64,000 nt of DNA from an uncultured Elusimicrobia bacterium (GTDB lineage: Bacteria; Elusimicrobiota; Elusimicrobia; UBA1565; UBA9628): contig CAIKVT010000081.1 of the NCBI GenBank assembly GCA_903830945.1, positions 1 to 64,000 on the forward strand. Reading direction: 5' to 3'. This document shows, one piece after another, positions 11,786 through 40,574 of the stretch; position 1 is the stretch's first letter; every line of letters starts with the position of its first letter. A program made the translations under genes and the position numbers. The notes under the pieces are model-generated. The model was not told where the DNA came from. It did no database searches and saw only the letters and a program-made list of their open reading frames with translations.

Positions 11786-12496
<711 letters not shown>

Positions 12497-13279
12497 GTGC
12501 TGCTGCCGCGAGTCCTGACAGCAGCGGTCGGCATCCCGTTGCTGCTCTATCTTGTCCACGCGGGCGGCATTGCATGGGTAATCTTTACGACGGCCGTCTG
12601 CGTTCTGTGTGTCTATGAGTACGGGCTCATCCTGGCAGCGGGCGGCCGGCCGGTCCAGCGTTGGGTCCTGCTTTTATGTGGGGCTGTCCTGGCGCTCAGC
12701 GTGGCTTTGGGCGGGCCGAGCCAAGCGGTCCTGACCGCTGTGGTAGCCGCCGTCCTTCTGCGCGAGATGTTCAGCAAGACGCATTCCTTGGAGCGGCTCG
12801 CCTTCACGATCCTCGGCGCGCTGCTGCTGGGCTGGATGCCGGCGCATCTGGCCCTCATTCGTGACCTGCGGCCGGACGGGGAGAAGCTGACCTACATGCT
12901 TTTCGTGGCGATCTGGCTCACGGATACCGCGGCTTACGTCGGGGGTCACGCGTTCGGCCACCATAAGCTGGCCCAGGGCTTGAGCCCCAAGAAGACTTGG
13001 GAAGGGGCTGCGGCGGGCTTTCTGTCCGCGGTGGGCGGGGTGTATCTTCTGCAGCAGCTTCTGGCTCCGGCGGGGCTGGGTCCGCGAGGGGCCTTGGCCA
13101 TGGGCGTGCTCATCGGCGTCTGCGGTCAGCTTTCGGATCTGGCTGAGTCCTTGGTCAAGCGCGCCGTCGGAGCCAAGGACTCCGGCAACCTGCTGCCCGG
13201 CCATGGCGGGATCATGGACCGATTCGACTCCTTCATCCTGGCCGCCCCGGCCGTCTACTATTTCTTGACGCTCAAGTAG
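12497..13279 (+). CDS. cdsA: Phosphatidate cytidylyltransferase (CDP-diglyceride synthase)
   Basis: Makes CDP-diacylglycerol from phosphatidate and CTP in the inner membrane. The 260-residue protein is almost entirely hydrophobic (about seven to eight helices) and ends in the family signature: LSPKKTWEGAAAG, then QLSDLAESLVKRAVGAKDSGNLLPGHGGIMDRFDS. The GTG start immediately follows the uppS stop. In most bacteria cdsA is followed by dxr; here the next 8.8 kb hold other genes on the opposite strand. Confidence 0.95.
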   Translation: MLLPRVLTAAVGIPLLLYLVHAGGIAWVIFTTAVCVLCVYEYGLILAAGGRPVQRWVLLLCGAVLALSVALGGPSQAVLTAVVAAVLLREMFSKTHSLERLAFTILGALLLGWMPAHLALIRDLRPDGEKLTYMLFVAIWLTDTAAYVGGHAFGHHKLAQGLSPKKTWEGAAAGFLSAVGGVYLLQQLLAPAGLGPRGALAMGVLIGVCGQLSDLAESLVKRAVGAKDSGNLLPGHGGIMDRFDSFILAAPAVYYFLTLK

Positions 13280-13286
13280 GGCCGCT

Positions 13287-14330
13287 TCAAGTTTCGCCAG
13301 GACATCGACTGAATTGAAACTTGGTGACAAAATCCGGCCCAAAAATCTGCCTCCCAATCTGGCCTATAACAGGCGGGTAGAATAATAAGATCATGTGCTG
13401 CCAGTCCCCATCTTCAGTCGAATCAAGAGGAGCAAGAAACGTTGTTATGTAAGTATTGATTTCTGGATCGTTTTTGGTAAAAGTAAATAGATGATAGTTT
13501 TGAGGAGAAGCTGACTCTTTTCGATAATTCACTTCCCAGTTTTTATCAATTTGGCTGCCTTTGAGATCCATTGCATTCCAAACCCCCAGCAAGTGAGAAT
13601 CTCCCCACACGCCAAACGTATAATAATCATAGATACCTGCCTGAAAAGCCGAATTAGCCTGAGCCATGTTTGCCTGAAAATCTCCTGCGGGATCAAGCTC
13701 TTTAAATCTCCCTAAATACCCCATCCAAGTTGGGAATGGACTCCATCCTGCTTTTTTCCCGCCTTCATCGCCGCCCAGAAGTGGATTTAAAGAAATAATA
13801 GTCACCTTGTTTTTGTAAAGAGCTTTTAAAGAAGAAGGCCTTTTGACACTGTCTGCTTGAGCAAAAATGACTGCCTGCCTTGGTATGAAATTAGCCATGC
13901 TATGAGTAATGATGAAAATCTGCTCAGGGTTTGTACCTGTTGTTGAGTCTATGGCGTCACTATAAAGTTGTTGATTGAATGCTTCAGCTACTGTTTTATA
14001 CGTATCCAACACGTCATAAGTAAAGGTTTTAATGGTCACTCCTGCCGTGTCGTACCCTCTAATAGCTGATTGGCTTTGTTGATAATCATGAAGAGCTTGC
14101 TGTAAACCAAGTAAAGAGTCCCCTCCAAACCCAGGAATAAGATAAACCAAAGTCTTGGGACCTGTCCCGGTTTCCGTTCCTATGTTTGGTTCCGCGCTTG
14201 CCCTGGCTCGCGCTGCCGCTAAAATATCGCTGATGTTCGCGGTGAAATCTGTCCCGCCCCATGAGAGATCAGACCGGACAGCTGCAGCCAGGACGAGGAG
14301 CCCTGCCATTATGATTGCGTTCTTCTTCAT
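13287..14330 (-). CDS. Secreted alpha/beta-hydrolase-like protein, AT-rich
   Basis: The 347-residue product has a signal peptide (MKKNAIIMAGLLVLAAAVRS) and a hydrolase-like core: LVYLIPGFGGDS near residues 64-75 resembles the oxyanion strand-loop of lipases, and ITHSMANF near 145 resembles a degenerate nucleophile elbow (normally GHSxG). A substrate cannot be assigned. Base use differs strongly from its neighbours: 16 of 60 bases are G or C at 13441-13500, against 44 of 60 at 15001-15060 in the kinase gene next door. This suggests recent acquisition. It lies 21 bases after the isopentenyl phosphate kinase gene on the same strand and converges with cdsA. Confidence 0.75.
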   Translation of the reverse strand: MKKNAIIMAGLLVLAAAVRSDLSWGGTDFTANISDILAAARARASAEPNIGTETGTGPKTLVYLIPGFGGDSLLGLQQALHDYQQSQSAIRGYDTAGVTIKTFTYDVLDTYKTVAEAFNQQLYSDAIDSTTGTNPEQIFIITHSMANFIPRQAVIFAQADSVKRPSSLKALYKNKVTIISLNPLLGGDEGGKKAGWSPFPTWMGYLGRFKELDPAGDFQANMAQANSAFQAGIYDYYTFGVWGDSHLLGVWNAMDLKGSQIDKNWEVNYRKESASPQNYHLFTFTKNDPEINTYITTFLAPLDSTEDGDWQHMILLFYPPVIGQIGRQIFGPDFVTKFQFSRCPGET

Positions 14331-14351: not shown

Positions 14352-15158
14352 TTACTCGATCAAGGTTCCCTCGCCGCCGGTCCCGAGGACCGCTTGGGTG
14401 AGGTTCTCTCCGTTCGTGGCGCAGCGCAAGATGCGCGCCGATCCCGCGCGACCCCGGCTCAGCAAAGCGAAGAGCCTCTCCACCTTCTTGCGCATGCCGC
14501 CGGTGACATCCGGAGCGTGGGAGCCGCGGATAGCGTCGAAGAGTCCTTTGATGTTGCCGCGGCTGATCGCGGGGATGGTCTTGTGGTCATGGCCCAGGAC
14601 CCCGTCGGTGTCCGAGACCATCACGATGCGGTCAAAATGGATGCGGCGGCTCAGGGCCTCTAGCAGGGCTTCGGTCGAGGCGATGGTAAAGCCCCGCTTG
14701 GAGTCCAGGACGACGTCTCCGTGCAGGACGGGGACCTGCCCTTGTTCCAGAAGGGCCTGGATGCTGCGGATGTCGAGGCGGCGTACGACCCCGTCTGCGG
14801 CTTCAGCTATCGCGAAGGGAGAGATGGTCACGGGGAAGAGTCCTCCTCGGTTGCATCGCTGCAAGAACAGCAGATTCATGCGGGCCATGGACTCGCGGAT
14901 CTTGTAGAGGCTTTCCCAGGCGTGCTTGGGATGGATGCCATCCACCGCAGAATATCTCTTGGCCAGGATATGGCCGTAGGAGCCGGCGCCGTGGCTCAAA
15001 ACCAGGCGGATGCGCCGGCCTTTGCGCGCGGAGGAGTCCATGGCCTTGCGGATGGCGCGGGCCGCAGTCGTGATGCGTGTGCCGTTGAGGCTGTCCGGCA
15101 CGGATTTGTCCGTGATGAAGGATCCGCCGAGCTTGACGAAGATATTAACGTGATCCAA
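14352..15158 (-). CDS. ipk: Isopentenyl phosphate kinase
   Basis: Phosphorylates isopentenyl phosphate to IPP, the final kinase step of the archaeal-type mevalonate pathway. The 268-residue amino-acid-kinase-fold protein has the specific IPK features: VKLGGSFITDK (8-18), SHGAGSYGH with the substrate-contacting histidine (55-63), VLHGDVVLD, MVSDTDGVL and DVTGGMRKKVE. These separate it from glutamate 5-kinase and UMP kinase. The start overlaps the AcnX small subunit by 14 bases. Its place at the end of an operon supplying mevalonate phosphate, dehydratase and decarboxylase makes the assignment strong. Confidence 0.93.
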   Translation of the reverse strand: MDHVNIFVKLGGSFITDKSVPDSLNGTRITTAARAIRKAMDSSARKGRRIRLVLSHGAGSYGHILAKRYSAVDGIHPKHAWESLYKIRESMARMNLLFLQRCNRGGLFPVTISPFAIAEAADGVVRRLDIRSIQALLEQGQVPVLHGDVVLDSKRGFTIASTEALLEALSRRIHFDRIVMVSDTDGVLGHDHKTIPAISRGNIKGLFDAIRGSHAPDVTGGMRKKVERLFALLSRGRAGSARILRCATNGENLTQAVLGTGGEGTLIE

Positions 15159-15540
15159 GGATGACCTCCTCGCCCTTGATCCGCACCATGGCGCCGTCTT
15201 GCAGGGCGGTGATATCCATGCTGTCCACGGTGGGGATCGAGCTGATGATGGCGCCTACGGCCACGATGGTGTCGCACTCGGAAAGGAGCATGGCCACGGG
15301 GGCCTTCCCTGACTTGCGCAGAGCGTAGAGGATGTAGGAGCCGACCGTGCTGCCCTTGGCGCGCGGAAAGACCAAAACGCGGCCCTTGACGCATTTCCCG
15401 TCGAGGGGATGGCCGGCTTCACGGTACATGCCCGTCTTGGGGTCGAGGTGGCCGAAGAGGCCCAGCGGCAGCTCGGACTTGAGCACCTTGCCGGCCGCGG
15501 TGCCGCTGAAGATGAGGCGGCCTTTTAGATTTTTTTCCAT
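15145..15540 (-). CDS. Phosphomevalonate dehydratase small subunit (AcnX type, DUF126)
   Basis: Swivelling-domain partner of the AcnX large subunit. Together they dehydrate mevalonate 5-phosphate to trans-anhydromevalonate 5-phosphate. The ATG at 15540 gives 131 residues. Family features are LIFSGTAAGKVL, HPLDGKCVKGRVLVFPRAKGSTVGSYILYAL with the substrate-loop serine, and TVDSMDITALQDGAMVRI near the end. A longer frame to 15717 is rejected because it runs antisense-like inside the large-subunit gene. The start lies inside the last codons of that gene (16-base overlap). The family also includes hydroxyproline dehydratases; operon context decides the function. Confidence 0.9.
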   Translation of the reverse strand: MEKNLKGRLIFSGTAAGKVLKSELPLGLFGHLDPKTGMYREAGHPLDGKCVKGRVLVFPRAKGSTVGSYILYALRKSGKAPVAMLLSECDTIVAVGAIISSIPTVDSMDITALQDGAMVRIKGEEVILGSR

Positions 15541-16739
15541 GATCCTCGCAGCGCAGCTTCGACATTTTCTTCCAAAGAGCCGAAATATACGCTGGCTCCA
15601 TGGTGGGAAGGCAGATAGAAGGCCGCCTTGGCGGAATCCGTGGCTAAGGTGTGTATGCCAAGTTCTTTGAGAGGCGCTACGACGATGCAGGTATCGGCGA
15701 CTAGGGCCGCTCCGCACTGCTCCAGAGCTTTGGCGACCCCGGTCGCTTCAGCCTGCTTGCGCACTTGCTCGGCTAAGAAAATCCAGAAAGGGACCTTGAT
15801 CTTCCTTCCGTTTAGGAGCTTCAATATCCGTGTCAGGTCCTCGAAAGAGGCATGCGGACAGCCCACGGCGACCACGTCCAAATCTCCCTTGCCGCAATCC
15901 AAGGCCTTGCGGCTTGCGGCCAGGCTCTTGATCACGCTTTTCTGCTTCGCGGCCGTGACAAGCTTGGCCCTATGTGCCACCGCCTCCGGGGTCACGCCTT
16001 CAAGGTGATAAAGCCCAACGGAGCCGGACGCGGCCATGCCAGCACCCAAGGCCTTGAGCCAAGTCAGACGCTCAGGCCCGGTCGGCGGCTGGGTGCCCGT
16101 GATGAACGGAATTCCCCCGCCCTTGTCCGACGCTACCAGCCGGCCGATGAGATAGCCCAGAGCTCCCGCGTCCGCGGCCGTAGGCACCGGACACTTCACC
16201 TCGATGATCCGGGTCGGCAGGCGCCCTTCGTCCGTGTGCAGAGTGTGTCGGGGCGTGAGCCCGGTCAAAGCCGCGGCAATGGCTGAGGGCCCCCCCTCGC
16301 GGTTGGTGCGTGCGCCCAGCACGGAGTTGGCGAAGCAGACGGCAGAAGACTCAGCCCAGGCCACATGCTCGCCGTATTGCGGGGTCACGCCTACGTGGTA
16401 AGGCGTGCAGGTCAGCGTCGGCTTGATGCCGAGCCCTTCTAAGGCCTTGATCACTCGCTCCTGCTTGCGCACGAAGGCCGGCGGAAATCCCAGGCTCTTC
16501 CAGATCCTGCGGTCCGCCCCGCCCGGATTCATGGTGGCAGGCACTACGGCCTTGGAGCCCATGCTCGCCCATTCCTCCAGGAAAGCCAGCCCATGCTCTC
16601 CGATGTTGTTGTAGCTGACCCCGGAGACTTGCACCGAACCGATTTTGACCATGTCGGGCGCGCCATGGATGCGGCTCAAGGCGGCTAGGATCTCCATGGC
16701 CTTGGCCGCGCCTGCGCCGGCTTTCGAGGATCGCTTCAT
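15525..16739 (-). CDS. Phosphomevalonate dehydratase large subunit (AcnX type, DUF521)
   Basis: Catalytic subunit of the aconitase-X family. 404 residues. Cys111 (TCTPYHVG), Cys294 (VGCPHASFEDL) and Cys351 (ADTCIVV) fit the three iron-sulfur ligands of the family. SVLGARTNREGGPSA (139-153) and GGIPFITGTQPPT are typical substrate and fold motifs. Proposed reaction: mevalonate 5-phosphate to trans-anhydromevalonate 5-phosphate. The ATG overlaps the UbiD-type gene stop by four bases. AcnX proteins also act on cis-3-hydroxyproline, but the flanking mevalonate kinase, UbiD, UbiX and IPK genes leave little doubt about the pathway. Confidence 0.92.
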   Translation of the reverse strand: MKRSSKAGAGAAKAMEILAALSRIHGAPDMVKIGSVQVSGVSYNNIGEHGLAFLEEWASMGSKAVVPATMNPGGADRRIWKSLGFPPAFVRKQERVIKALEGLGIKPTLTCTPYHVGVTPQYGEHVAWAESSAVCFANSVLGARTNREGGPSAIAAALTGLTPRHTLHTDEGRLPTRIIEVKCPVPTAADAGALGYLIGRLVASDKGGGIPFITGTQPPTGPERLTWLKALGAGMAASGSVGLYHLEGVTPEAVAHRAKLVTAAKQKSVIKSLAASRKALDCGKGDLDVVAVGCPHASFEDLTRILKLLNGRKIKVPFWIFLAEQVRKQAEATGVAKALEQCGAALVADTCIVVAPLKELGIHTLATDSAKAAFYLPSHHGASVYFGSLEENVEAALRGSWKKI

Positions 16740-17992
16740 TCCGCTATCTTTGAGAAGAGCGAAAGGTCGCCGGACTTGACCGTGGCATCCAAGCCCAGCT
16801 TGGCGCTGCGGCTTTTGCCTCCCTCAACATGGCGGGCCGAAGGGTCCAAGGAGCTTGCCGGCTGGTCCTTGAGGATGAGCGTGTCCGTGTCGGCCTGGAA
16901 GCGCGTGGCTATGGCCCACTCCACCTCGGCCGGGTCGGAGATGTCCACATCATCGTTTACAACCACGCAATGCTTGAGCGAGCGGTGGGCCCGGAAAGCC
17001 GCCTCTAGAGCTTTACGGCCGTCCGCGGCGTCTTTCTTGGCGATCCTCAGCACCGCATGCAGCCAGGAACAGCCGCCCGGCGTGATGCGCACGTCCAGGC
17101 AGTGACAGACCTTGTTGGCTTCACGGTAGATGTCGAGTTCCTTGGGGATGCCCATGAGCGTCTTATGGTCGAGCATGCCCGGTACGATGGTGTAATGGAT
17201 CGGGTTCTTCCGGCAGGCGACGCGGGATATCTCGAAGACCGGCTGCTGGCGTACGAAATCCATGGTGCCCGTGATGTCCACGAACGGTCCTTCCGGCCCG
17301 CGTCCTCCTGTGAAGTGGCCCTCCAGGACCATCTCGCAGTCCGAAGGCACTTCCAGGTCCACTGTCTTGCAGCGCTGCAGCTTCACCGGGCTGAGGTTCG
17401 CGGCCAGGTCCAGCTCGCTGACGTCCGGCGCCGGCGACAGGGCCGCAGCGAAGAGCACGTGTATGGGAGCGCTGACGCAGATCGCGGCCGCGGCCTTGCC
17501 GCCCAGATGCTTGAGCGCCGTATCCGTGCCGCGGTTCTCTACCACCCGCACCGTGCCGCGCTCCGGAGAACCCATCATGAGCCGATGATAGCAGGCATTG
17601 ACTCCCAACTCCGGGTCCTTAACGATCCAGACCCCGGCCGTGAGATACGGCCCGCCGTCGCCCTTGTAGTAGGTCAGGAAAGGCAGCTTTCCCCAGTCCT
17701 TTCGGGGCACCTCGACCTCGCCGTAGACCACGCCGGTGTTAGTCGCTTTTTCTCCTTTCGTTAAGAGGCGTCCCAACTCGGAGAGGAACTTTTCCGGCTG
17801 CACGCCGAGGCGTCGGGCCAAGGTGTCCCGGTCAGGGAGGATGTTGGCCAGGACCCGCGAGCCTTCGACGTCTTCTAGCAGGATGGGCGAGGGCTCCGCC
17901 TCGCGGATGAGCGCCGAGGCTTCTAGGTGGAGCTTCGTCTTTTTCTTGACCGGGGTCAGCTCCGCAGCCAAAGTGCGCAGGTCCAGGCTCAT
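16736..17992 (-). CDS. UbiD-type decarboxylase, likely anhydromevalonate phosphate decarboxylase
   Basis: Predicted prenylated-FMN enzyme that decarboxylates trans-anhydromevalonate 5-phosphate to isopentenyl phosphate. The ATG at 17992 (418 residues) overlaps the UbiX stop (ATGA), and upstream frame extension is only the shadow of ubiX. Visible UbiD features are ENRGTDTALKHLGG, EMVLEGHFTGGRGPEGPFVDITG, where Glu234 and Asp239 have the spacing of the catalytic acidic pair, and the C-terminal VVNDDVDISDPAEVEWAIATRFQ. Ubiquinone or aromatic-acid decarboxylation is the alternative for a UbiD alone. The operon, with AcnX dehydratase after it and IPK last, argues for the mevalonate role. Confidence 0.9.
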   Translation of the reverse strand: MSLDLRTLAAELTPVKKKTKLHLEASALIREAEPSPILLEDVEGSRVLANILPDRDTLARRLGVQPEKFLSELGRLLTKGEKATNTGVVYGEVEVPRKDWGKLPFLTYYKGDGGPYLTAGVWIVKDPELGVNACYHRLMMGSPERGTVRVVENRGTDTALKHLGGKAAAAICVSAPIHVLFAAALSPAPDVSELDLAANLSPVKLQRCKTVDLEVPSDCEMVLEGHFTGGRGPEGPFVDITGTMDFVRQQPVFEISRVACRKNPIHYTIVPGMLDHKTLMGIPKELDIYREANKVCHCLDVRITPGGCSWLHAVLRIAKKDAADGRKALEAAFRAHRSLKHCVVVNDDVDISDPAEVEWAIATRFQADTDTLILKDQPASSLDPSARHVEGGKSRSAKLGLDATVKSGDLSLFSKIAE

Positions 17993-18549
17993 TTCCCCCC
18001 CCAGCGGCGGACCAGCTTGTGCTCCACGCCGAGCAGGTCCAGGATCTTGCCGACGAAGAAATCGGTCATGTCGGCGACGCTCCGCGGCTTGTGATAGTAG
18101 GCGGCGCAGGGCGGCATGACGATCGCGCCGCCGCGGCGCAGGGCCACCATGTTCGAGAGCGCGGCCAGAGAGAGCGGCGTCTCCCGGGGGACCACGATGA
18201 GCTTGCCGCCGGTGCGCAGCACGCCGTCCGCGGCCCGGATGAGCAGGTTGTTGGCGTAGCCCGCGGCCAGCGCGGAGAGGGACTTTACGGAGCAAGGGGC
18301 CACGACCATGGCCTCGACCAAAAACGAGGTGCTGTTCAATGGAGAGGCTGCGTCGTCCTGCCCATGCACCGTCAGCCCTTTCGGGAAGCGGAAATCCTCC
18401 TTTACCTCGTGCCTGATGACCTGCCAGGCCGCGTCCGTCACGATGACATGCACCTCGCGGCCGGCGGCTAGGAGCTCCTCTGCGGTGCGGATGCCGATGA
18501 TGACGCCGGAGGCGCCGGAGATGCCCACGACGATCGGTCTAGCCTTCAT
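17989..18549 (-). CDS. ubiX: Flavin prenyltransferase UbiX
   Basis: Attaches a dimethylallyl group to FMN, making the prenyl-FMN cofactor of UbiD enzymes. 186 residues from ATG 18549. That start has GGAGG nine bases upstream; a GTG at 18555 would be too close to it. Motifs are VGISGASGVIIGIR, VVAPCSVKSLSALAAGYANNLL, ADGVL and VVPRETPLS, all diagnostic for UbiX. It overlaps mevalonate kinase by 11 bases and the decarboxylase gene by four. It needs a dimethylallyl phosphate donor, which the same pathway supplies. Confidence 0.95.
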   Translation of the reverse strand: MKARPIVVGISGASGVIIGIRTAEELLAAGREVHVIVTDAAWQVIRHEVKEDFRFPKGLTVHGQDDAASPLNSTSFLVEAMVVAPCSVKSLSALAAGYANNLLIRAADGVLRTGGKLIVVPRETPLSLAALSNMVALRRGGAIVMPPCAAYYHKPRSVADMTDFFVGKILDLLGVEHKLVRRWGGK

Positions 18550-19498
18550 GGTCACCGACCTCCGTCAGGAATGTTGCGGCCGCGCCCGCCGCCTTGAGCG
18601 CGCGTTGAGTGCGCTTGGCGCAGAGCGGGTCGTCGGTCAGGGCCGCCATGCACCCGCCCCGGCCCGCGCCGCTGAGCTTGGCGCCCAGGGCGCCGGCATT
18701 CCGGGCCGCGGCGACCAGGGAGTCCAGTTCCGGCGAGGAGACGTCGAGGCTTTCGAGCAGTTCCTGGTTGCGGTCCATGATCCGGCCGAGCTCGCTCCAG
18801 CGACCGGCCTGGAACGCTTTTGCGCCCGGCCCGGAGAGCCGGCCGATGTCCCGGAAGATGGTGTCGTAGCGGACCGGGTCCAGGCCGCGGGCCCGGGCCA
18901 CTTCGGCCACGATCTCCGAGGTGCGATGCCTTCGGCCCGTATGCCCGACGATCAGGAAGCACCGGGACTGGGGCGTGGCAAGGAACTGGGCCGGGGCGCC
19001 TTTGCGGAAGAGGATGGGCCGGCCCAGCGCGATGACCGTGTTGTCGATGCCGCTGGGCGTGCCGTGGTGGAGCTTCTCTATCTCGTAGACCAGTTCGGAG
19101 AGGACTTGGGGGGTGTGGGGGACGCGGAAATAGCGGAAGATCGCCTTGAAGGCGGCGGCCGCCACCGCGGCCCCGCTGCCCAGGCCGCAGCCGGACGGAA
19201 TCTGCGAGCGGACCGCGAGCTTCCAGCCCTGCGCGGGCACGGCCGTAAAACGTTTGGCCGCGGCCCGGATGATCCGGGCGAATGGCTCGGCCTCAGGCGG
19301 GGGCGGCGTCGCGCCATCCCAGCGCAGGTTGTAATCCTTCAATTCGACCGCTACGGACCGGCCGTGTTGGGCCTGGGAGACGGTGGCTCTAGCTTTAGGC
19401 TGCTTCAGGGGCACGGCCAAGGCGGCCTCGCCGTAGACCACGGCGTGCTCTCCCAGGAGGATGAGCTTCGAGGCGGCGTCCGCGGATTTGCAGCGCAA
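18539..19498 (-). CDS. mvk: Mevalonate kinase
   Basis: GHMP kinase that phosphorylates mevalonate to mevalonate 5-phosphate. 319 residues with the three GHMP motifs: LLGEHAVVYG (14-23), QIPSGCGLGSGAAVA (99-113), and KLSGAGRGGC near 283-292. EKLHHGTPSGIDNTV (141-155) holds the catalytic acid and is typical of mevalonate kinase, not homoserine or phosphomevalonate kinase. It starts three bases after the HMG-CoA reductase stop. No phosphomevalonate kinase or diphosphomevalonate decarboxylase lies in the cluster, in keeping with the modified pathway. Confidence 0.95.
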   Translation of the reverse strand: MRCKSADAASKLILLGEHAVVYGEAALAVPLKQPKARATVSQAQHGRSVAVELKDYNLRWDGATPPPPEAEPFARIIRAAAKRFTAVPAQGWKLAVRSQIPSGCGLGSGAAVAAAAFKAIFRYFRVPHTPQVLSELVYEIEKLHHGTPSGIDNTVIALGRPILFRKGAPAQFLATPQSRCFLIVGHTGRRHRTSEIVAEVARARGLDPVRYDTIFRDIGRLSGPGAKAFQAGRWSELGRIMDRNQELLESLDVSSPELDSLVAAARNAGALGAKLSGAGRGGCMAALTDDPLCAKRTQRALKAAGAAATFLTEVGDHEG

Positions 19499-19501
19499 AG
19501 T

Positions 19502-20860
19502 CTATTGGCCGTTCTCGGGAGCATCCTGCTTGTGGGCGATCATCTTCTTGAGGATCTCCCGCGCCCGGTCGAAGCGGATGCGGCCTTCCTGGATCATCTG
19601 GTTGGCGATCGTGATGGCCATATCCCCGATGGCGCCGGCGGAATAGGCGACGTTGCGGGCATGGAGGGTCATGTGCCCCTCCTGTATCCCCTCGGTCACC
19701 AGGGCCCGCAGGGCGGCCATGTTTTGCACCAGCCCCACCGTGGCCACGACCTCGGCCAACTCGCGGCGCGACGGCATGCCCATCAGCCGCAGCAGGAGAC
19801 CGACCCCTGGATGCAGCTTGGAGACTCCTCCCACCACGCCCACGGCCATGGGAAGTTCGATCTCCCCGATGAGCTTGTCGCCTTCGATGCGGTACTTGGA
19901 AAGCGACCGGTAGCGGCCGGTTTTTGCCGCATAGGCGTGCGCACCGGCTTCCACGGCCCGCCAATCGTTGCCGGTGGCGATGAGGACCGCGTCGATGCCG
20001 TTCATGATGCCCTTGTTGTGGGTCGCCGCCCGGTAGGGGTCGGCGTCCGCGAAATGATACGCCTTCACCATACGGTCGGCCACCGTATGGCCGTCGAAGG
20101 TCGTGCTTTTGAGGCAGGCGCAGTTGAGCTCAACGCGCGCCTTGACCAAGGACTTGTCGCAGAGGTTCGAGATGATCTGGCAGATCACCTCGGCCTTGGC
20201 GATCTCGCCCAGCACGGGCCCGAGGGTCTCGACCATGGTGTTGACCGCGTTGGCCCCCATGGCATCGACGACGTCCACGGCCAGATGCACGATGAGCATG
20301 GGGCCACTTTCGGTCTCGATGCGCCGCGTGTAGAGGTCTCGGGCGCCGCCGCCGAGATTGACCAAGGTGCGGTCTTGCTTGTTGGCCAGCAGGAGGAGCC
20401 GTTCCTTGGCTTCCGCGATATCCTTGACGGCTTGGTCACAGTCGTGCGGATGGACCAGCTGGATCTGGCCTTCCATGACGGCATGGGAGGCGTTGGCGGT
20501 CAGGTTCCCATTCTCGCGGATGAGCTTGGCCAGGTTGCTGCAGGCCGCCACGATGGATGTCTCCTCTACGGCCATGGGGATGACGTAGTCCTTGTCGTTG
20601 ATCCGGAAATTGACCGCTACGCCCAAGGGCAGACCGAAGACGCCGATGACGTTCTCGACCATGACGTCGGCCTGCTCGGCGGTCAGAGTCTCGTTCTTGA
20701 GTATCCACTTTTCCTTGGTGGTCAGGGGGTACCAGTCCGCGAGCTTGTCCAGGCGCTCCCAGACGTCGAGGTTATAAAAGCCGGGGAAGCGCGAGGTGCG
20801 CTGCATCTTCTTGTCGGCGGGCGGCTCTATTTTTGTTTTCGGCTTCTGTTGTTGATCCAT
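19502..20860 (-). CDS. mvaA: HMG-CoA reductase, class II
   Basis: Reduces HMG-CoA to mevalonate. 452 residues without membrane anchor. Class II features are RFPGFYNLDVWERL, ENVIGVFGLPLGVAVNF, VEETSIVAA with the catalytic Glu at 99-100, DAMGANAVNTMVE, HNKGIMNGIDAVLIATGND with Lys283 and Asp299, and LHARNVA with His400. All four catalytic residues are present. The ATG at 20860 overlaps the isomerase gene by 34 bases. A second ATG at 20806 would avoid the overlap and also fits family N-termini. Class II enzymes can be degradative or biosynthetic; the operon indicates biosynthesis. Confidence 0.95.
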   Translation of the reverse strand: MDQQQKPKTKIEPPADKKMQRTSRFPGFYNLDVWERLDKLADWYPLTTKEKWILKNETLTAEQADVMVENVIGVFGLPLGVAVNFRINDKDYVIPMAVEETSIVAACSNLAKLIRENGNLTANASHAVMEGQIQLVHPHDCDQAVKDIAEAKERLLLLANKQDRTLVNLGGGARDLYTRRIETESGPMLIVHLAVDVVDAMGANAVNTMVETLGPVLGEIAKAEVICQIISNLCDKSLVKARVELNCACLKSTTFDGHTVADRMVKAYHFADADPYRAATHNKGIMNGIDAVLIATGNDWRAVEAGAHAYAAKTGRYRSLSKYRIEGDKLIGEIELPMAVGVVGGVSKLHPGVGLLLRLMGMPSRRELAEVVATVGLVQNMAALRALVTEGIQEGHMTLHARNVAYSAGAIGDMAITIANQMIQEGRIRFDRAREILKKMIAHKQDAPENGQ

Positions 20861-21876
20861 TCTCTTAGTTGTCCTGTGATCACGGGCTGGTGCCTCTTGA
20901 GGGCCGGGATGTCCTGGACCCCGACCAAGAGCATGACGGCCTTGAGCTCCGCGATCACGTCTTGCAGGCAGGTCAGCGCCCCATCGTAGCCGCCGCGCAT
21001 GTAGGCGCGCAGCACCGGCAGCGCCAGGCCCGCCACGTCAGCGCCGAGGACGAGGCATTTGGCCGCGTCGAGGCCGTTGCGGATGCCGCCGGAGCCTACG
21101 AGCGTAAAGCCCAGCGGGGAGGTCTCCCAGAGAGAGGCGGCCGTGGGGATGCCCCAGTCGTCGAGCCATTCTCGGCGCGCCGGGTCGGCGCCCTTCCTCA
21201 GATTCTCCACCCGCGGCCAGGAGGTCCCGCCCGCGCCCGCCACGTCCAGGGTCCGCACTCCAGCGGTCTTGAGTCCTTGCGCCACCTCTCGGGAGATGCC
21301 GCAGCCGGTCTCCTTGACCATGACCTTGCCGGGCATGCGGCGGGTCAGGCTCTTGAGAGTCTTGAAACCGTCTTGGAAACGCTTGTCGCCTTCGGTCTGG
21401 TTTAATTCCTGGGCGGGGTTGAGGTGCACGGCCAGGCCATCGGCGTCGATGCTTGTGACCAGACGGGCGACGTCAGCCGGGTCTGCGGCGGCGGCCTGCT
21501 GGAGGGCGATGTTGCCCAGGATGGGGATGTCCGGCGCATAGCGGCGGACCGCATAGGAGCCGATCATGCCGGGGTCTTGCAGCATGGGGCGCTGGCTGCC
21601 CAGGCCAAAGGCGATGCCCAGTTTCTGGGCGACTTTGGCCAGGTCTCGGTTGAGCCCCTCGGCCGCCTTGACTCCGCCTGAGATGGCGGTGATCATGAGT
21701 GGGGCGCGCAGAGGCTTGCCCATGAAGCGGGTCTCGGTGCTTATCTCATCGAAAGACACTTCAGCGACGGCAGCATGCACCAGCTGGACGTGCTCCAGCC
21801 AGGTGCTTTGGCGCTGGAACTCCACATCCATCTCAGCGCATATCCGGAGGTGGTCCGTCTTGCGGCCCTGGCTCAT
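20827..21876 (-). CDS. fni: Isopentenyl-diphosphate delta-isomerase, type 2 (FMN)
   Basis: Interconverts IPP and DMAPP with reduced FMN. 349-residue TIM-barrel protein with RKTDHLRICAEMDVEF at the N-terminus, PLMITAISGG, GLGSQRPML, LAVHLNPAQE, VKETGCGISREVA, DVAGAGGTSWPRVE and GSGGIRNGLDAAKCLVLGAD. These are the FMN- and substrate-binding motifs of type 2 IDI, which is common in archaea and mevalonate-using bacteria. It is the first gene of the eight-gene mevalonate operon. A possible promoter lies just upstream. Confidence 0.96.
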   Translation of the reverse strand: MSQGRKTDHLRICAEMDVEFQRQSTWLEHVQLVHAAVAEVSFDEISTETRFMGKPLRAPLMITAISGGVKAAEGLNRDLAKVAQKLGIAFGLGSQRPMLQDPGMIGSYAVRRYAPDIPILGNIALQQAAAADPADVARLVTSIDADGLAVHLNPAQELNQTEGDKRFQDGFKTLKSLTRRMPGKVMVKETGCGISREVAQGLKTAGVRTLDVAGAGGTSWPRVENLRKGADPARREWLDDWGIPTAASLWETSPLGFTLVGSGGIRNGLDAAKCLVLGADVAGLALPVLRAYMRGGYDGALTCLQDVIAELKAVMLLVGVQDIPALKRHQPVITGQLREWINNRSRKQK

Positions 21877-22103: not shown

Positions 22104-22118
22104 GTCGCGGGTATTTTG

Positions 22119-23270
22119 ATGAAACGCATCGCCATCCTCGGTTCCACCGGTTCGGTCGGGCGCAACGCCCTGCGTGTTGTGGACGCCATGCCCGGGCGCT
22201 TCCGTGTCGTCGGCCTGGCCGCGCATTCCAACGGCGGGCTTCTCTCGCGGCAAGTCTTGCGCTACAAGCCGGCCATGCTCTCACTTTTCGAGACTGCCGC
22301 TTCTGAAGCCCTCAAAAGCCGGCCTTATGGCTGTCGGCGCCTGGGCTCAGGCGTCGAGGGGTTAGTCGAGATGGCCGGGCATCCGGACGTGGACCTGGTC
22401 CTGATTGGTCTGGTTGGAGGCGTTGGCTTCGCCCCCCTCCTGGCGGCGCTGCGCGCGGGAAAGACCGTGGCTCTGGCCAGCAAGGAGCCTATGGTCATGG
22501 CCGGAGCCCAGTTCATGCGCGAGGCCAAGCGCTGGGGCGCGCGCATCATCCCAGTGGATTCCGAGCCGTCGGCCATCTTTCAATGTATCCAGGGCAACCC
22601 TGCGACCGCCATCCGCCGCGTCCTGCTCACCGCTTCGGGCGGCGCTTTCTATCGGCGTCGGGGCTCGCTTGACCGGGTTCGGGTCGCCGAGGCCTTGCGC
22701 CATCCGACCTGGAAGATGGGCCGCAAGATCACGATAGACTCGGCGACGTTGATGAACAAGGGCTTTGAGGCCATCGAGATCATGCATCTCTTCGGGCTTG
22801 GGCATGAGGCCATCGAGATCGTGATTCACCCCCAGTCCATCGTGCATTCGGCCGTGGAGTTCTCTGACGGTGCGGTTCTGGCTCAGATGGCGCCCCCGGA
22901 CATGCGCCTGCCCATCCAGCACGCTCTCGCCTACCCCGAACGCGCCGCCGCGATCGTCAAGAGGCTCGATTTGGCCGCGGTCGGCGCGCTAAACTTTTCA
23001 CGGCCTGATTTCCGGCGCTTCCCCTGCCTGGCGTTGGCCCGCGAGGCCGCGGCGACCGGCGGCGGGATGCCGGCGGTCCTCAACGCCGCCGATGAGGTTG
23101 CAGTGGACGCCTTCACGGCTGGACGCATCCGTTTCACGCAGTTGGCGCGGGTCGTGGAAAAGGTTATGCGAGCTTTTCGCGGTGGCCGCGGGCTGCCCAG
23201 TTTTTCCGAGGTCGTGGAGATCGATCAGTGGGCCCGGCGTCAGGCCCAGGAGGCTTGCACCCGGCTATGA
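22119..23270 (+). CDS. dxr: 1-deoxy-D-xylulose 5-phosphate reductoisomerase, divergent
   Basis: Family enzyme of the MEP isoprenoid pathway (DXP to MEP with NADPH). 383 residues from ATG 22119. ILGSTGSVGRNAL binds NADPH. The metal and substrate residues Asp147, Ser148 and Glu149 (VDSEPSAIFQ), HPTWKMGRKITIDSATLMNKGFE (His195, Glu217) and IHPQSIVHS (His237) are present. Two normally conserved spots differ: DSEP where DSEH is usual, and ASKEPMV where ANKESLV is usual. The first replaces the histidine numbered 153 in E. coli, which is important for activity there. It overlaps rseP by four bases. Function with reduced or changed activity is possible. Confidence 0.92.
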   Translation: MKRIAILGSTGSVGRNALRVVDAMPGRFRVVGLAAHSNGGLLSRQVLRYKPAMLSLFETAASEALKSRPYGCRRLGSGVEGLVEMAGHPDVDLVLIGLVGGVGFAPLLAALRAGKTVALASKEPMVMAGAQFMREAKRWGARIIPVDSEPSAIFQCIQGNPATAIRRVLLTASGGAFYRRRGSLDRVRVAEALRHPTWKMGRKITIDSATLMNKGFEAIEIMHLFGLGHEAIEIVIHPQSIVHSAVEFSDGAVLAQMAPPDMRLPIQHALAYPERAAAIVKRLDLAAVGALNFSRPDFRRFPCLALAREAAATGGGMPAVLNAADEVAVDAFTAGRIRFTQLARVVEKVMRAFRGGRGLPSFSEVVEIDQWARRQAQEACTRL

Positions 23271-24364
23271 ACACCCATAATGTCATGAGTTGGCTTCAGT
23301 CCGCGGCAGCAGTGTTGCTCACCTTCGGTTTAGTCATCTTCCTGCACGAGCTTGGGCACTTCCTCATGTGCCGTCGGCTTGGTATCCGCGTTGAGAAATT
23401 CGCTTTCGGCATGGGTCCCGAGCTCTTCGGCGTGACTCAAGGAGAGACGCGCTATTCGCTCTGCGCCTTTCCCGTGGGCGGTTTCGTTAAGCCTGCCGGA
23501 GAGGAGATAGAGACCTGTACGGGCAAGCCTGATGAATATTACGGCCAGGCTTGGTATCGGCGTCTGGCCATCGTCTACGCCGGGCCGGTCATGAACTACA
23601 TCCTGGCTTTTTTCCTCTTTGCCGGCGTCATCTATCTTAAGGGCCTGCCCGAGTATGGCGATAAGCCCGTCATCGGCAATCTAATGACGGGCTACCCCGC
23701 GGACAGGGCTGGCATCAGGATCGGTGATGAGATACTGGCTTTCAACGACCAGCCCATCACCACCTGGAAGCAGCTCTCGGATGGGATTCATGCCCTGCCC
23801 AAGCAAGAGGTGGCGATCCGCTATCGACGCGACGGCAAGGAATTCCAAGCTCAATTGACCACCAAGGTGGACGGCGCCACGGGTTTCGGCGTCATCGGCA
23901 TCATGCCTGAGTCCGTTTACAAGCCGGTCGGCCCGCTGACTGCCGCCTGGGAGGGAGCAGCTCAGTGCTACAATTTCACAGCTGTCACGGCCAAGACCAT
24001 CGCCTCCAAGATCTACCATCGTCAGCGTCCGGATCTGGCGGGCCCTGTGGGCATCGCCCAGATGGTCAGCCGCGCCGCGCATTCCGGCTGGGAGGACTTG
24101 GTCTTCCTTATTGGATTCATCTCCGTGGCTATTGGGTTCTTCAACCTCCTGCCGGTGCCTCTCCTTGATGGGGGCCATGCCTTTCTTTATTTGTGGGAAG
24201 GGCTTTCTCGCCGCAGGCTCACCCAAGAACTCATGACCCGGGCCAACAGCGTGGGCTTCATCCTGCTCGCCTTGCTCATCGTCTTCGCCACTTACAGCGA
24301 CGTCCTGCGCTTGCGTGATGAGCGTGCCTCTCGTCGGGCGCAGTCCGTGGAGGCCGCCCCCTAA
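23267..24364 (+). CDS. rseP: Site-2 protease, RseP family (M50)
   Basis: Inner-membrane zinc metalloprotease that cleaves membrane substrates such as anti-sigma factors. 365 residues from ATG 23267, whose ATGA overlaps the dxr stop. HELGH (27-31) holds the zinc ligands and catalytic Glu. One PDZ-like domain lies in the middle (GYPADRAGIRIGDEILAFND, about 137-160). NLLPVPLLDGGH near the C-terminus supplies the third metal ligand. At 365 residues it has one PDZ domain, unlike the two in E. coli RseP. The dxr-rseP pairing is typical. Confidence 0.95.
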   Translation: MNTHNVMSWLQSAAAVLLTFGLVIFLHELGHFLMCRRLGIRVEKFAFGMGPELFGVTQGETRYSLCAFPVGGFVKPAGEEIETCTGKPDEYYGQAWYRRLAIVYAGPVMNYILAFFLFAGVIYLKGLPEYGDKPVIGNLMTGYPADRAGIRIGDEILAFNDQPITTWKQLSDGIHALPKQEVAIRYRRDGKEFQAQLTTKVDGATGFGVIGIMPESVYKPVGPLTAAWEGAAQCYNFTAVTAKTIASKIYHRQRPDLAGPVGIAQMVSRAAHSGWEDLVFLIGFISVAIGFFNLLPVPLLDGGHAFLYLWEGLSRRRLTQELMTRANSVGFILLALLIVFATYSDVLRLRDERASRRAQSVEAAP

Positions 24365-36707: not shown

Positions 36708-38090
36708 TTATGGTTTGCGCATCGTTGGCGGGCGCCGCGGCTCGAAATGCTTGGCGTTGACTTCCTTGAACACCTTTTCGATGGTGTTGACCGCCTGGTC
36801 CATCTCCTTCGGCGTGAGGGTCAGTGGCGGCTCGATGCGCAGGGTCTTGGCCGAGAAGAGCGTCCCGGCCACCAGTACCCCATTGTCGAAAAGGCTCTTG
36901 GATACCTCGTAGCCGATAGCGTCGGTCGGGAACTCGATGCCGATCATGAAGCCCTTGCCGCGCACATCGGTGCAGAGCTTGGGGAAGCGTCGGCGCAGGG
37001 TTTTGAGCCTGTTGATCATCTCAGTGCCCATCTTGTCCGCCCGTTCCGGCAGCTTCTCCTCCAGAAGGACATGGATGCCCGCGATGGCCGCCACGCAGGC
37101 CAGCGGGTTTCCTCCGAAGGTGGTGGAGTGCAGCCAGGGCTCGGGAAAAAGCTGCTCCCAGATGGTCTTGTTGGACACGAAGGCCCCGATGGGCATGACG
37201 CCTCCGCCCATGCCCTTGCCCAGGCACATGATGTCCGGAACTACGTCCCAGTGGTCCACGCAGAACATCTTGCCCGTGCGGCCGAAGCCTGTCTGGATCT
37301 CGTCGGCGATCAGGAGCGCTCCGAAGCGGTCGCAAAGCTCGCGCACCCTGGGGAAGTAGTCATCCGGGGGCACGTTGATGCCTCCCTCGCCTTGGATGGG
37401 CTCCAGGATCACGCCCGCGATGTCGTTGCCCACCTCGTCGGCTGACTTCAGGGCCGACTCCACATAGTCTGCGTCGCCGTAGGGCACATGGTAGCAGTCG
37501 GGCAGGATGGGCAGGAAGGGCTGGCGGAACTTGGCCTTGGCCGTGGCCGAGAGCGCGCCCAAGGTCTTGCCGTGAAAGCCGGAATTGGCCGCGATAAAGG
37601 ACTTGCGGCCCGTGTGCAGCATGGCCAGCTTCATCGCTCCCTCGACGGCCTCGGCGCCGGAGTTGCCGAAGAAGGAGAACTGCAGGTCTCCGGGGGTGAT
37701 GTCGTTGATGAGTTTGGCGAGTATGGCCCGGAAGGGCTCCAGGAGTTCTTGTGAGTGCAGTGCCTGGCGTTTGAGTTGGTGCGAGACCGCCTCCACCACC
37801 TTGGGGTGCCGGTGTCCTACGTTGTAGATGCCGTAGCCGCCCAGAAGGTCCAAGTACTTGCGGCCCTTGATGTCCTCGAAGCTGTTGGCGTTGTCCGCCC
37901 ACTCGATGGAGATGTATTCCGTGGAGACGGACTTGCGGTATTCAAGGATGCCCGGGTTGACGTGGTTGGCGTAGTAGTCGGCGGTGACCTGCGTCAGCCA
38001 GTCTTTGTCTTCGTCGTTGAGGGAGCTCTTGGCCACCAGTTCCAGGGTGCGCTGCGTCTCTTTAAGGATGTCCTGCGAGGAACTCTTCAT
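36708..38090 (-). CDS. Class III aminotransferase, putrescine aminotransferase-like
   Basis: PLP enzyme of 460 residues. Class III marks are YLDLLGGYGIYNVGHRHPKVVEA, FFGNSGAEAVEGAMKLA, SGFHGKTLGALSATA, VILEPIQGEGGINVPP, LIADEIQTGFGRTGKMF, and CLGKGMGGGVMPIG with the PLP lysine. The N-terminal extension and length agree with putrescine:2-oxoglutarate aminotransferase, but ornithine, lysine or 4-aminobutyrate cannot be excluded. GGGAGA sits six bases before the ATG. It follows a saccharopine-dehydrogenase-like gene by 28 bases, which suggests a role in diamine or lysine metabolism. Confidence 0.88.
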   Translation of the reverse strand: MKSSSQDILKETQRTLELVAKSSLNDEDKDWLTQVTADYYANHVNPGILEYRKSVSTEYISIEWADNANSFEDIKGRKYLDLLGGYGIYNVGHRHPKVVEAVSHQLKRQALHSQELLEPFRAILAKLINDITPGDLQFSFFGNSGAEAVEGAMKLAMLHTGRKSFIAANSGFHGKTLGALSATAKAKFRQPFLPILPDCYHVPYGDADYVESALKSADEVGNDIAGVILEPIQGEGGINVPPDDYFPRVRELCDRFGALLIADEIQTGFGRTGKMFCVDHWDVVPDIMCLGKGMGGGVMPIGAFVSNKTIWEQLFPEPWLHSTTFGGNPLACVAAIAGIHVLLEEKLPERADKMGTEMINRLKTLRRRFPKLCTDVRGKGFMIGIEFPTDAIGYEVSKSLFDNGVLVAGTLFSAKTLRIEPPLTLTPKEMDQAVNTIEKVFKEVNAKHFEPRRPPTMRKP

Positions 38091-38118
38091 TTTTGATCTC
38101 CCTGCTGTGAAGATGGGT

Positions 38119-39297
38119 CTACATGATCAACGGGTGCGTGATGGTTTCTTTAAAAAGGAACACTTTGCGTCGCATAAGTCCCTTGAAGAAAACGTCTGAA
38201 TCGAGCAGCCCCTCGGGCGCGGATACCCCGGCCGGGGCCGTCGTGTGCCCCAGTACAAGCATCTCGGCCGCTACGGCGCCTGCAAATCCCACCCCCATCG
38301 CGCCGGCGGTGAGCAAGCGCGTGGCCCGCATCTCGCAGTCCCAGGTCTTGACCAAGGGCCGGCCATGGCGCGTGCCGGAGATGTGGACCCGCATCACTTC
38401 AAAGTCGGCGGGCGTGCCCGAATGCGCAGTTGCGCTCTGTTGGGCCAACGCGGTGACGAACTGTCGCGGCGAGATCCGGATACCATCCACGGTGATGGGC
38501 GTATCCTTGGACAGCCCCATCCCCATCAGGAATGCCAACTGGCGCTGGACAACTTCGGGATAGACGATCTTGAAATAAAGGTTTTGCACGCCCGTGCCCT
38601 TGAGATGTTCGGGCAAGGTTGCTGTCTCTGAATGGATCACGGTCACGGCCCGGCAGCGACCTAGAGGCTGAGGGAAAACGAGCTCCTCAGGGTCGGAGTG
38701 CGCCGGCACCGCGCGCATACGTCCGCCCAACAGGATGGGGGCCGGTTGGGCGTACTCGGCGAGCATGGTCCTGATGGAGAAGGGTGGAAGGAAGGTCTCC
38801 TCGCTCAATGATGGGTCGTGGCTGGCGTCGTAGATAGCCACGGTGTCGATGGTCTCAAAGGAGGGGGCCATGCGCGCTACCATCATGTTTGTGATGCCCG
38901 GAGTGGCGCCGCAGCCCAGCACCGCGCGCAAGCCTGCACGCCGGAATTGGCGGTCGCGCGCGAGCTGGCGCACGGTCGTGTGGAAGAGTCCACCCAGATC
39001 CACGTAATGGGTTTTAATGGCCAAGGCTAGGTCCATGGCTTTGAGGTTATGCTCGAACCATGCACAGTTGAGCAGGGCTTGGCTGCCGCGTAGGGCGCGG
39101 CAGGCTTGGCTCGTCTTTGTGATGTCTACCTGGATGGGGATGATTTTGCGGCGTTGGGGGATCTTGGCCAGGATCCCCCGGGCTCTGTCGAGGGTCAGGT
39201 CAGCGGCCAGCACGCGGTTTATCTTTGGATTGGCCGCCAGATCATGGAGCGCGGCCTCAGCCATGAGGCCGAAGGCCCCCAGTACCGCTATTTGCAT
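38119..39297 (-). CDS. Saccharopine dehydrogenase-family oxidoreductase
   Basis: 392 residues. The N-terminus is a Rossmann fold (IAVLGAFGLMAEAALHDL, then ADLTLDRARGI), followed by LLNCAWFEHNLKAMDLAL, HYVDLGG and GCGATPGITNMMV, all typical of saccharopine dehydrogenase / lysine 6-dehydrogenase / carboxynorspermidine synthase relatives. The specific reaction is not readable from sequence. Together with the downstream aminotransferase it may act on a lysine- or polyamine-derived semialdehyde. A consensus promoter lies about 64 bases upstream of the start. No Shine-Dalgarno is visible. Confidence 0.85.
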   Translation of the reverse strand: MQIAVLGAFGLMAEAALHDLAANPKINRVLAADLTLDRARGILAKIPQRRKIIPIQVDITKTSQACRALRGSQALLNCAWFEHNLKAMDLALAIKTHYVDLGGLFHTTVRQLARDRQFRRAGLRAVLGCGATPGITNMMVARMAPSFETIDTVAIYDASHDPSLSEETFLPPFSIRTMLAEYAQPAPILLGGRMRAVPAHSDPEELVFPQPLGRCRAVTVIHSETATLPEHLKGTGVQNLYFKIVYPEVVQRQLAFLMGMGLSKDTPITVDGIRISPRQFVTALAQQSATAHSGTPADFEVMRVHISGTRHGRPLVKTWDCEMRATRLLTAGAMGVGFAGAVAAEMLVLGHTTAPAGVSAPEGLLDSDVFFKGLMRRKVFLFKETITHPLIM

Positions 39298-39367
39298 TAG
39301 AAAAAACTCATATAAAATCGAATAAAATTATGAACTAATCAACAATCTAGATTCTATTTCTGGCAGG

Positions 39368-39397
39368 ATTATAACAGTTGCCCAGCTGGGGTGTCAA
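39368..39397 (-). promoter_or_regulatory. Consensus promoter TTGACA-18-TATAAT
   Basis: Minus strand: TTGACA (39397-39392), 18-base spacer, TATAAT (39373-39368) with TG one base before it. Predicted start near 39361, giving a 64-base AT-rich leader for the saccharopine-dehydrogenase-like gene. The -35 overlaps the stop codon of the upstream gene (39394). Confidence 0.75.
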
Positions 39398-39855
39398 AGA
39401 CGAGGATTCGGCAATTCTATAGCGGTCCATATGGCCCTCCCTTGTCGCAGGACCCATCCGTAGTAGATCAGGAAAATTCCCGGGACAATGGAGAACCAGG
39501 GCGCGATGCGGCCGGCGAGGAGCAGCAGTCCTGTGACCAGGAGGACTACGGCGTAGAGGAACAGGCCGACCGTGAGATCCATGATGCCCTGGCTCGGGTT
39601 GGCTCCTGTCTGCCGGTAGCCGAGCCATAGATAACCCGCGCCACAGCCCGTAGTGCAGAAGAAATGCGCCAAGTACATCTGCTGCCAGGCCGCAGCTGAG
39701 ATGCGGACCCGCAGATGTCCCAGCGCGTAGAGCGCGGCCGCGGTCATTAGGCTGCAACAAAGCAGGCCGAAGATGATGAAGATGACGCCCAGGCCCCGGC
39801 GCTGTGGGTTCGGGACCGCAGTCAGGCGGGGACCGGCTGCCCTTGGCGCGCTCAC
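39394..39855 (-). CDS. Small membrane protein of unknown function
   Basis: 153 residues from GTG 39855 with four predicted membrane helices (GLGVIFIIFGLLCCSLMTAAAL, MYLAHFFCTTGCGAGYLWLG, GLFLYAVVLLVTGLLLLAG, WFSIVPGIFLIYYGWVL). No family recognised. Last gene of a minus-strand run that begins at 44065. Confidence 0.7.
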   Translation of the reverse strand: MSAPRAAGPRLTAVPNPQRRGLGVIFIIFGLLCCSLMTAAALYALGHLRVRISAAAWQQMYLAHFFCTTGCGAGYLWLGYRQTGANPSQGIMDLTVGLFLYAVVLLVTGLLLLAGRIAPWFSIVPGIFLIYYGWVLRQGRAIWTAIELPNPRL

Positions 39856-39876
39856 GGCGTCTCTTTCTTCAGGGTC

Positions 39877-40539
39877 CTAGACATGGGACGCTTTCCGGTC
39901 AAGACCTTCGGCCAGGAAGACGCCCGCTCCGATGCCGGCTCCGATGAGCAATCCTGTGAGCAGGTCCAGGGGCGAGGGAACGAAACTCCTCGGGTCCCAG
40001 TGTCCCTGGGAGTAGGAGGGGACGATGGATAGAAAGGTCTTCAGTGCCAGATAGCCGGAGAAAGATCCCAGTACGGCGGCACCGGCTCCGAGCCAGCGGC
40101 GTCTCGGGCAGAGGAGGGCTCCCAGAGCCAGGGTGGTCCCCCAATTCGCTATGGTATAGACGGCGATGACCGCGAGGGTCCAGGCTAGGCCGACGAGGTT
40201 CATGCCGCCCATCGACTGCATGAGTCTGGTCGTGAAGGCCGGGAAATGAGCCAGCAGGCCCATGAAGGCCCCCATGGGCCGGGGATCATGGGTCAGAACG
40301 ATCATGGGCAGAGCGACGCCGAGGAAATTCCCCAGAAAGCCCAGGAGCCCGGCGCCAGCGCTCCCAGCCAGCGCCAAACCGATGCAGCCGTAGAGTAGCC
40401 CGAGATAGGCCGAGATCCCGAAGAATTGTCCAGGCCCGTAAGGTCCCTTGAGCCAGAATTCCCCCCCCGCCCGTAGGCACCAAGTGACGAAGAGGTGCCC
40501 CAGGGCCGCGCCGACGAAGCCGCCGGCCAGGCCGCGCAC
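39877..40539 (-). CDS. Membrane protein of unknown function
   Basis: 220 residues from GTG 40539 with about six hydrophobic helices rich in Gly and Ala. The reading frame continues protein-like upstream of the GTG (RPAVPNLFQGL) to the hydantoinase stop but lacks a standard start codon there, so the true N-terminus may be longer. No family recognised. It lies directly downstream of the hydantoinase gene. Confidence 0.7.
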   Translation of the reverse strand: MRGLAGGFVGAALGHLFVTWCLRAGGEFWLKGPYGPGQFFGISAYLGLLYGCIGLALAGSAGAGLLGFLGNFLGVALPMIVLTHDPRPMGAFMGLLAHFPAFTTRLMQSMGGMNLVGLAWTLAVIAVYTIANWGTTLALGALLCPRRRWLGAGAAVLGSFSGYLALKTFLSIVPSYSQGHWDPRSFVPSPLDLLTGLLIGAGIGAGVFLAEGLDRKASHV

Positions 40540-40574
40540 TAGGCCTTGGAAAAGGTTTGGTACGGCGGGTCGTT

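Follow-up and report, generated by a model that had tools for sequence, protein, structure and literature searches.

An archaeal-type mevalonate operon beside the MEP pathway in an Elusimicrobiota bacterium, possibly fed from leucine degradation

How does a bacterium with genes of the 2-C-methyl-D-erythritol 4-phosphate (MEP) pathway come to have, within a series of housekeeping genes, an operon for the archaeal form of the mevalonate pathway, and from where would this operon draw its 3-hydroxy-3-methylglutaryl-CoA (HMG-CoA)? The locus that raises this question lies in a 64,000-nucleotide stretch (hereafter the window; contig CAIKVT010000081.1, positions 1 to 64,000) of an Elusimicrobiota metagenome-assembled genome (MAG) of 3.24 Mb and 99.3% completeness, labeled G000 below. 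Isoprenoid precursors are indispensable, and their divided origin, from the MEP pathway in bacteria and the mevalonate pathway in archaea, is a long-standing question in the study of early evolution. With moderate confidence, we favor the explanation that an archaeal-type mevalonate operon, spread by horizontal transfer, entered the chromosome between cdsA and dxr, beside the MEP genes, that its entry module was lost, and that HMG-CoA would be supplied from leucine or isovalerate.

The operon comprises eight minus-strand genes at 14352-21876, arranged tail to head, with junctions that overlap by 4-34 nt apart from one 3-nt gap. Both this tight packing and the clear family identity that the initial annotation had claimed for each gene are borne out: NCBIfam or Pfam models match all eight, the two AcnX subunits being placed by Pfam and the remaining six scoring over NCBIfam cut-offs. 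From 5' to 3' they are:

fni, 20827..21876, minus strand: type 2 isopentenyl diphosphate (IPP) isomerase, predicted to convert IPP to dimethylallyl diphosphate (DMAPP); TIGR02151, 344 bits, over the cut-off
hmgr, 19502..20860, minus strand: class II HMG-CoA reductase (HMGR); TIGR00532, 390 bits; closest PDB relatives 6dio and 1qax
mvk, 18539..19498, minus strand: mevalonate kinase (MVK); TIGR00549, 230 bits, over the cut-off; best PDB matches the mevalonate kinases 6mde and 4hac
ubiX, 17989..18549, minus strand: flavin prenyltransferase, predicted to make prenylated FMN (prFMN) for UbiD; TIGR00421, 189 bits, over the cut-off; start ATG at 18549, alternative GTG at 18555
ubiD, 16736..17992, minus strand: probable trans-anhydromevalonate 5-phosphate decarboxylase; TIGR00148, 286 bits, over the cut-off; PF01977
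acnX-L, 15525..16739, minus strand: putative phosphomevalonate dehydratase large subunit with type IIb residues; PF04412, 430 bits
acnX-S, 15145..15540, minus strand: putative phosphomevalonate dehydratase small (swivel) subunit; PF01989; PDB 7cnr_B
ipk, 14352..15158, minus strand: isopentenyl phosphate kinase (IPK); NF040647, 164 bits, over the cut-off; PDB 3k4o

Genes, residues, gene order and presence or absence are what we read directly, and each reaction is predicted from them. HMGR would convert HMG-CoA to mevalonate and MVK mevalonate to mevalonate 5-phosphate, from which AcnX would form trans-anhydromevalonate 5-phosphate; UbiD, with the prFMN made by UbiX, would turn this into isopentenyl phosphate, which IPK would convert to IPP and Fni on to DMAPP. 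The residues are in keeping with these assignments: HMGR retains the class II active-site E, K, D and H motifs, IPK matches the archaeal IPK and retains the HGAGSYGH motif, and UbiD retains the HRL and EGPFxD motifs. The phosphate loop of MVK reads GLGSG where GLGSS is usual, as it does in nine of the ten Elusimicrobiota carriers, with GLGSS occurring in G230. Diphosphomevalonate decarboxylase (TIGR01240), which the initial annotation had reported as absent, was detected in none of 11 genomes, including the window genome and all operon-bearing genomes. It is from the operon context that we assign anhydromevalonate phosphate as the probable substrate of UbiD.

AcnX could in principle be a hydroxyproline dehydratase, and the initial annotation had singled out a grouping with those enzymes as fatal to its reading. 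The mevalonate 5-phosphate-binding residues of Thermococcus kodakarensis AcnX have been listed, as have its [Fe-S] ligands Cys110, Cys283 and Cys342 (PMC8184944), and in the Aeropyrum pernix enzyme three cysteines hold the catalytic [4Fe-4S] cluster (PMC10040528). On alignment with the T. kodakarensis protein, AcnX-L of the window is identical at all ten mapped binding positions (G40, V41, S42, N45, N71, E130, S131, S132, K371 and Y375) and retains all three cluster cysteines as C111, C294 and C351; AcnX-S retains the KGSTVGS motif. The cysteines, the ESS triplet and the K/Y positions are likewise kept in 10/10 Elusimicrobiota copies and in a Chloroflexi copy. As opposed to these, the hydroxyproline-binding T72 and D203 of the type I enzymes are V and S in the window AcnX, and the site-C cysteine is not present. 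The best PDB match of AcnX-L is the T. kodakarensis structure 7cnr (291 bits, versus 194 for hydroxyproline dehydratase), and it scores 266 bits against NF051439, whose cut-off is 700. Because the binding residues and the three [4Fe-4S] cysteines of the archaeal dehydratase are kept, and given the scores, hydroxyproline dehydratase is ruled out, and by sequence AcnX groups with mevalonate-5-phosphate dehydratase.

Across the phylum the operon is rare. AcnX of the operon type occurs in 10 of 341 Elusimicrobiota genomes, of which five belong to the genus of the window organism, two to another genus of its family and three to two other families of its order. The gene set thus recurs in nine other genomes, and its order is the same in each case where a single contig holds all of it (in G038 and G041 it is split across two contigs, and in G022 an insert of 1.4 kb separates ubiX from ubiD); this recurrence argues that the arrangement is not due to chance. 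These relatives are Elusimicrobia MAGs, of which several come from groundwater; a contig scan with narrow patterns returned Elusimicrobiota and one Chloroflexi record only. In G234, from another family, the operon genes are 72-89% identical to those of the window, as against 49-75% for most of the shared housekeeping genes, and the operon and flank trees place this genome at different depths. From these two disparities we infer that the operon has spread horizontally within the phylum.

The chromosomal site provides a further clue to its history. The operon interrupts a plus-strand housekeeping series: rpsB-tsf-pyrH-frr-uppS-cdsA lies before it and dxr-rseP-rimP-nusA after it. The native genes closest to the operon are:

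uppS, 11786..12496, plus strand: native cluster; order with frr and cdsA conserved in relatives
cdsA, 12497..13279, plus strand: native cluster; adjoins dxr in operon-free relatives
dxr, 22116..23270, plus strand: MEP-pathway reductoisomerase; PRK12464, 465 bits; TIGR00243, 418 bits
rseP, 23228..24364, plus strand: native cluster, downstream of dxr

The initial annotation made no mention of dxr, which lies 240 bp from fni and is divergent from it. In 11 operon-free relatives cdsA is directly beside dxr; in the sister genome G040 the entire operon sits between the two, and the places where contigs break off in G041 (on both sides) and in G038 (on the fni-dxr side) are consistent with the same site. 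We posit that the Elusimicrobiota lineage of the window acquired the operon by insertion at this site, between cdsA and dxr. In G043, G023 and G234, rseP directly follows cdsA and dxr is gone. A uppS paralogue, 45-47% identical to that of the window, is found on the operon contigs of G043 (L024:15181-15879) and G234 (L051:12203-12880), adjoining ipk in the latter, and neither genome retains the original uppS between frr and cdsA. In the window itself, a 347-aa ORF lies 3' of ipk (13287-14330, minus strand) with a lipase-like THSM motif seen by eye and no Pfam or NCBIfam match.

The window genome also retains MEP genes elsewhere, with ispG on contig C27 and ispH on C69 in addition to dxr in the window, which implies that in this organism the operon adds to the MEP pathway. 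The initial proposal that the bacterium makes IPP by the archaeal route encoded in one operon thus stands insofar as the operon encodes the steps from HMG-CoA to IPP and DMAPP; sole dependence on this route does not survive the presence of dxr, ispG and ispH. All three genes are present in the operon carriers G000, G038, G040 and G041 and in the operon-free G039 and G042, while none of the three was found in the carriers G043, G022 and G023. In three further carriers, where dxr alone was scored, it is present in G226 and was not found in G230 or G234. The operon probably now runs alongside the existing MEP pathway in the window organism. Operon-free relatives have cdsA next to dxr, the operon occupies that junction, and dxr is gone in G043, G023 and G234; these gene orders fit a history in which the operon was gained first and the MEP pathway lost later. 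A single bacterial family here displays several states, namely MEP only, MEP with the archaeal operon with or without HMG-CoA synthase (HMGS), and the archaeal operon with no MEP genes found, so that the swap of an essential pathway can be traced one gene at a time, as far as the removal of dxr from between cdsA and rseP.

What, then, feeds the operon? The initial annotation had simply expected HMGS to come from elsewhere, an expectation that our searches do not support, as they detected neither an archaeal nor a bacterial HMGS: the window genome has no match to PF08540 or TIGR00748, PF01154 recovers FabH matches only, and the archaeal HMGS of G040 (515 bits as HMGS), used as a query, retrieves only FabH-like matches of 23% identity. 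In G040 the gene order is methylcrotonyl-CoA carboxylase (MCC) beta, biotin carboxylase, biotin carboxyl carrier protein (BCCP), HMGS, thiolase and DUF35. Contig C14 of the window genome has orthologues of the first three (93%, 86% and 80% identical, respectively); other genes than HMGS-thiolase-DUF35 follow BCCP there, and the contig extends for about 5 kb further. The archaeal HMGS-thiolase pair is present in G040, G022, G023, G230 and G234; HMGS was not found in G043 and is not scorable in G038, G041 and G226, whose contigs break off at MCC, thiolase or BCCP genes. Since G038 keeps the thiolase (89%) and DUF35 (82%) at a contig start, and both trees join G000 to G040 with moderate support (0.57 and 0.88), the most parsimonious reading is a loss of the module in the window's lineage: the entry from acetyl-CoA (archaeal HMGS, thiolase and DUF35), kept in the sister G040, would have been lost there.

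Two observations concern the same module in other genomes. A DUF6125-type protein follows BCCP in G043 (L090:3231-3770) and a similar-looking one follows the DUF35 of the HMGS module in G234 (L091:3028-3537), positions hinting that HMGS-thiolase-DUF35 was excised in G043. In G230 the HMGS-thiolase-DUF35 module occurs twice, as diverged copies on contigs C107 and C120 (L094:12311-14911 and L096:7-2580).

A conventional entry, in which an HMGS in the missing part of the assembly or an unrecognized enzyme of the thiolase superfamily supports a normal archaeal pathway from acetyl-CoA, would agree with the HMGS-thiolase pairs of the sister and the other four genomes, with the thiolase and DUF35 at the contig edge in G038 and with the KAS III-like proteins of the window genome. 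We regard it as a real but lesser possibility, given the completeness of the genome and the locus after BCCP, which lacks the module on a contig that continues. The KAS III paralogues on C13 and C60, considered as candidates for HMGS, both score as FabH or KAS III.

The source we favor lies on C14 itself, in a cluster where genes for an acyl-CoA dehydrogenase and for MCC beta, MCC alpha and BCCP are accompanied by those for a crotonase, HMG-CoA lyase and a protein that fuses phosphotransbutyrylase to butyrate kinase. The acyl-CoA dehydrogenase, MCC and methylglutaconyl-CoA hydratase would supply HMG-CoA from leucine or isovalerate. The crotonase is methylglutaconyl-CoA-hydratase-like and stands in the hydratase position, its substrate being suggested by this context. 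The carboxyltransferase belongs to the methylcrotonyl type (759 bits with Pseudomonas MCC versus 463 with geranyl-CoA carboxylase and 278 with the propionyl-CoA carboxylase 1vrg); its top PDB match is 9tps, deposited as propionyl-CoA carboxylase. Of the operon carriers, all but the fragmentary G038 have an MCC-type carboxyltransferase, which was not found in the operon-free G039 or G042; in G043 a single contig holds both the MCC cluster and the operon, and in G226 an MCC fragment lies on the operon contig. Such an entry is chemically established, because trypanosomatids devoid of HMGS channel leucine-derived HMG-CoA into sterols (PMC10874023, PMC5993337). Leucine or isovalerate degradation is the most likely source of HMG-CoA in the window bacterium. 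The fusion protein of the cluster (L088:16538-18751) has 737 aa and joins a phosphotransacetylase-like domain to butyrate kinase.

HMG-CoA lyase also figures in another account, whereby HMGR acts degradatively with it, or mevalonate of neighboring organisms is taken up, and isoprenoids are made de novo from MEP only. The class II HMGR does best match a 'degradative' model, 1qax from P. mevalonii is one of its closest PDB relatives, and the MEP genes are intact. We nevertheless consider salvage or disposal improbable: every step from mevalonate to DMAPP is encoded in the operon, and in the MEP-less G043, G022 and G023 no route was detected other than this operon, whose HMGR there is orthologous.

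Might the operon instead be a decaying relic, no longer functional in the window genome after the loss of HMGS? Apart from the missing HMGS and the presence of the MEP genes, this would draw on the G000 branch having more changes than that of G040 in some operon genes, such as acnX-L. However, the flanking genes show a comparable G000:G040 ratio of unique changes (57:35 and 83:42 with two outgroups, versus 173:83 and 154:88 for the operon), the eight reading frames are uninterrupted and keep their active-site residues, and pairwise dN/dS against G040 is 0.10-0.28 for the eight operon genes (0.06-0.15 for the flanking genes). The operon is under purifying selection, and in this genome without HMGS its genes show, by these coarse tests, no clear sign of faster evolution than the flanks or of decay; we accordingly judge a relic very unlikely.

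Some points do weigh against the leucine-fed operon that we favor. The MEP pathway may carry all flux, with the operon silent. The C14 cluster includes HMG-CoA lyase (NF004283, 314 bits, over the cut-off), and hence leucine-derived HMG-CoA may be cleaved and go only to acetoacetate. An HMGS gene could also lie in the unrecovered 0.7% of the genome, though the syntenic site is empty. More tentatively still, some Elusimicrobiota may possess a leucine- or isovalerate-fed archaeal-type mevalonate pathway that has lost HMGS, as the sole route in G043, with the window genome as an intermediate that keeps the MEP pathway too.

Elsewhere in the window, a class III aminotransferase, a saccharopine-dehydrogenase-like protein and an amidohydrolase lie near one another (36708-41987, minus strand), perhaps as an amino-acid degradation cluster, and a 1490-aa protein (57445-61917, plus strand) combines a pro-kumamolisin activation domain with fibronectin type III domains.

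Finally, these findings can be set against known systems. The archaeal (modified) mevalonate pathway, described in A. pernix and Methanosarcina mazei according to PMC10040528 (which cites Hayakawa 2018 and Yoshida 2020), shares with the window MVK, the type IIb AcnX heterodimer with three cluster cysteines, members of the UbiD and UbiX families, IPK, Fni and the lack of diphosphomevalonate decarboxylase. The window differs in its bacterial host, its single eight-gene operon, its class II HMGR, the failure to find HMGS and the MEP genes in the same genome. An archaeal-type route in a bacterium is itself already known, having been reported in Candidatus Promineifilum breve of the Chloroflexota (Kanno 2024, as cited in PMC13001223); the window represents a different phylum, and the one Chloroflexota locus compared (L040) is 36-49% identical to it in ubiD, acnX-L, acnX-S and ipk. 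Bacteria with both pathways are also known, for example Streptomyces (PMC13001223), and resemble the window organism in carrying both in one genome, whereas the mevalonate branch of the latter is archaeal-type and lies inside the MEP-linked cdsA-dxr cluster. In the open-access literature, we found no paper on an archaeal-type mevalonate pathway in Elusimicrobiota, nor on a leucine-fed mevalonate pathway devoid of HMGS in bacteria. What appears new is therefore the phylum, the stepwise replacement of the MEP pathway and, probably, the HMGS-free, leucine-fed entry, which if true would be the first such mevalonate pathway in bacteria as far as our literature search showed. Its closest parallel is in eukaryotic parasites, the Leishmaniinae and Blastocrithidia, where leucine-derived HMG-CoA can likewise feed HMGR in the absence of HMGS; unlike the window bacterium, these organisms lack HMG-CoA lyase (PMC10874023, PMC5993337).

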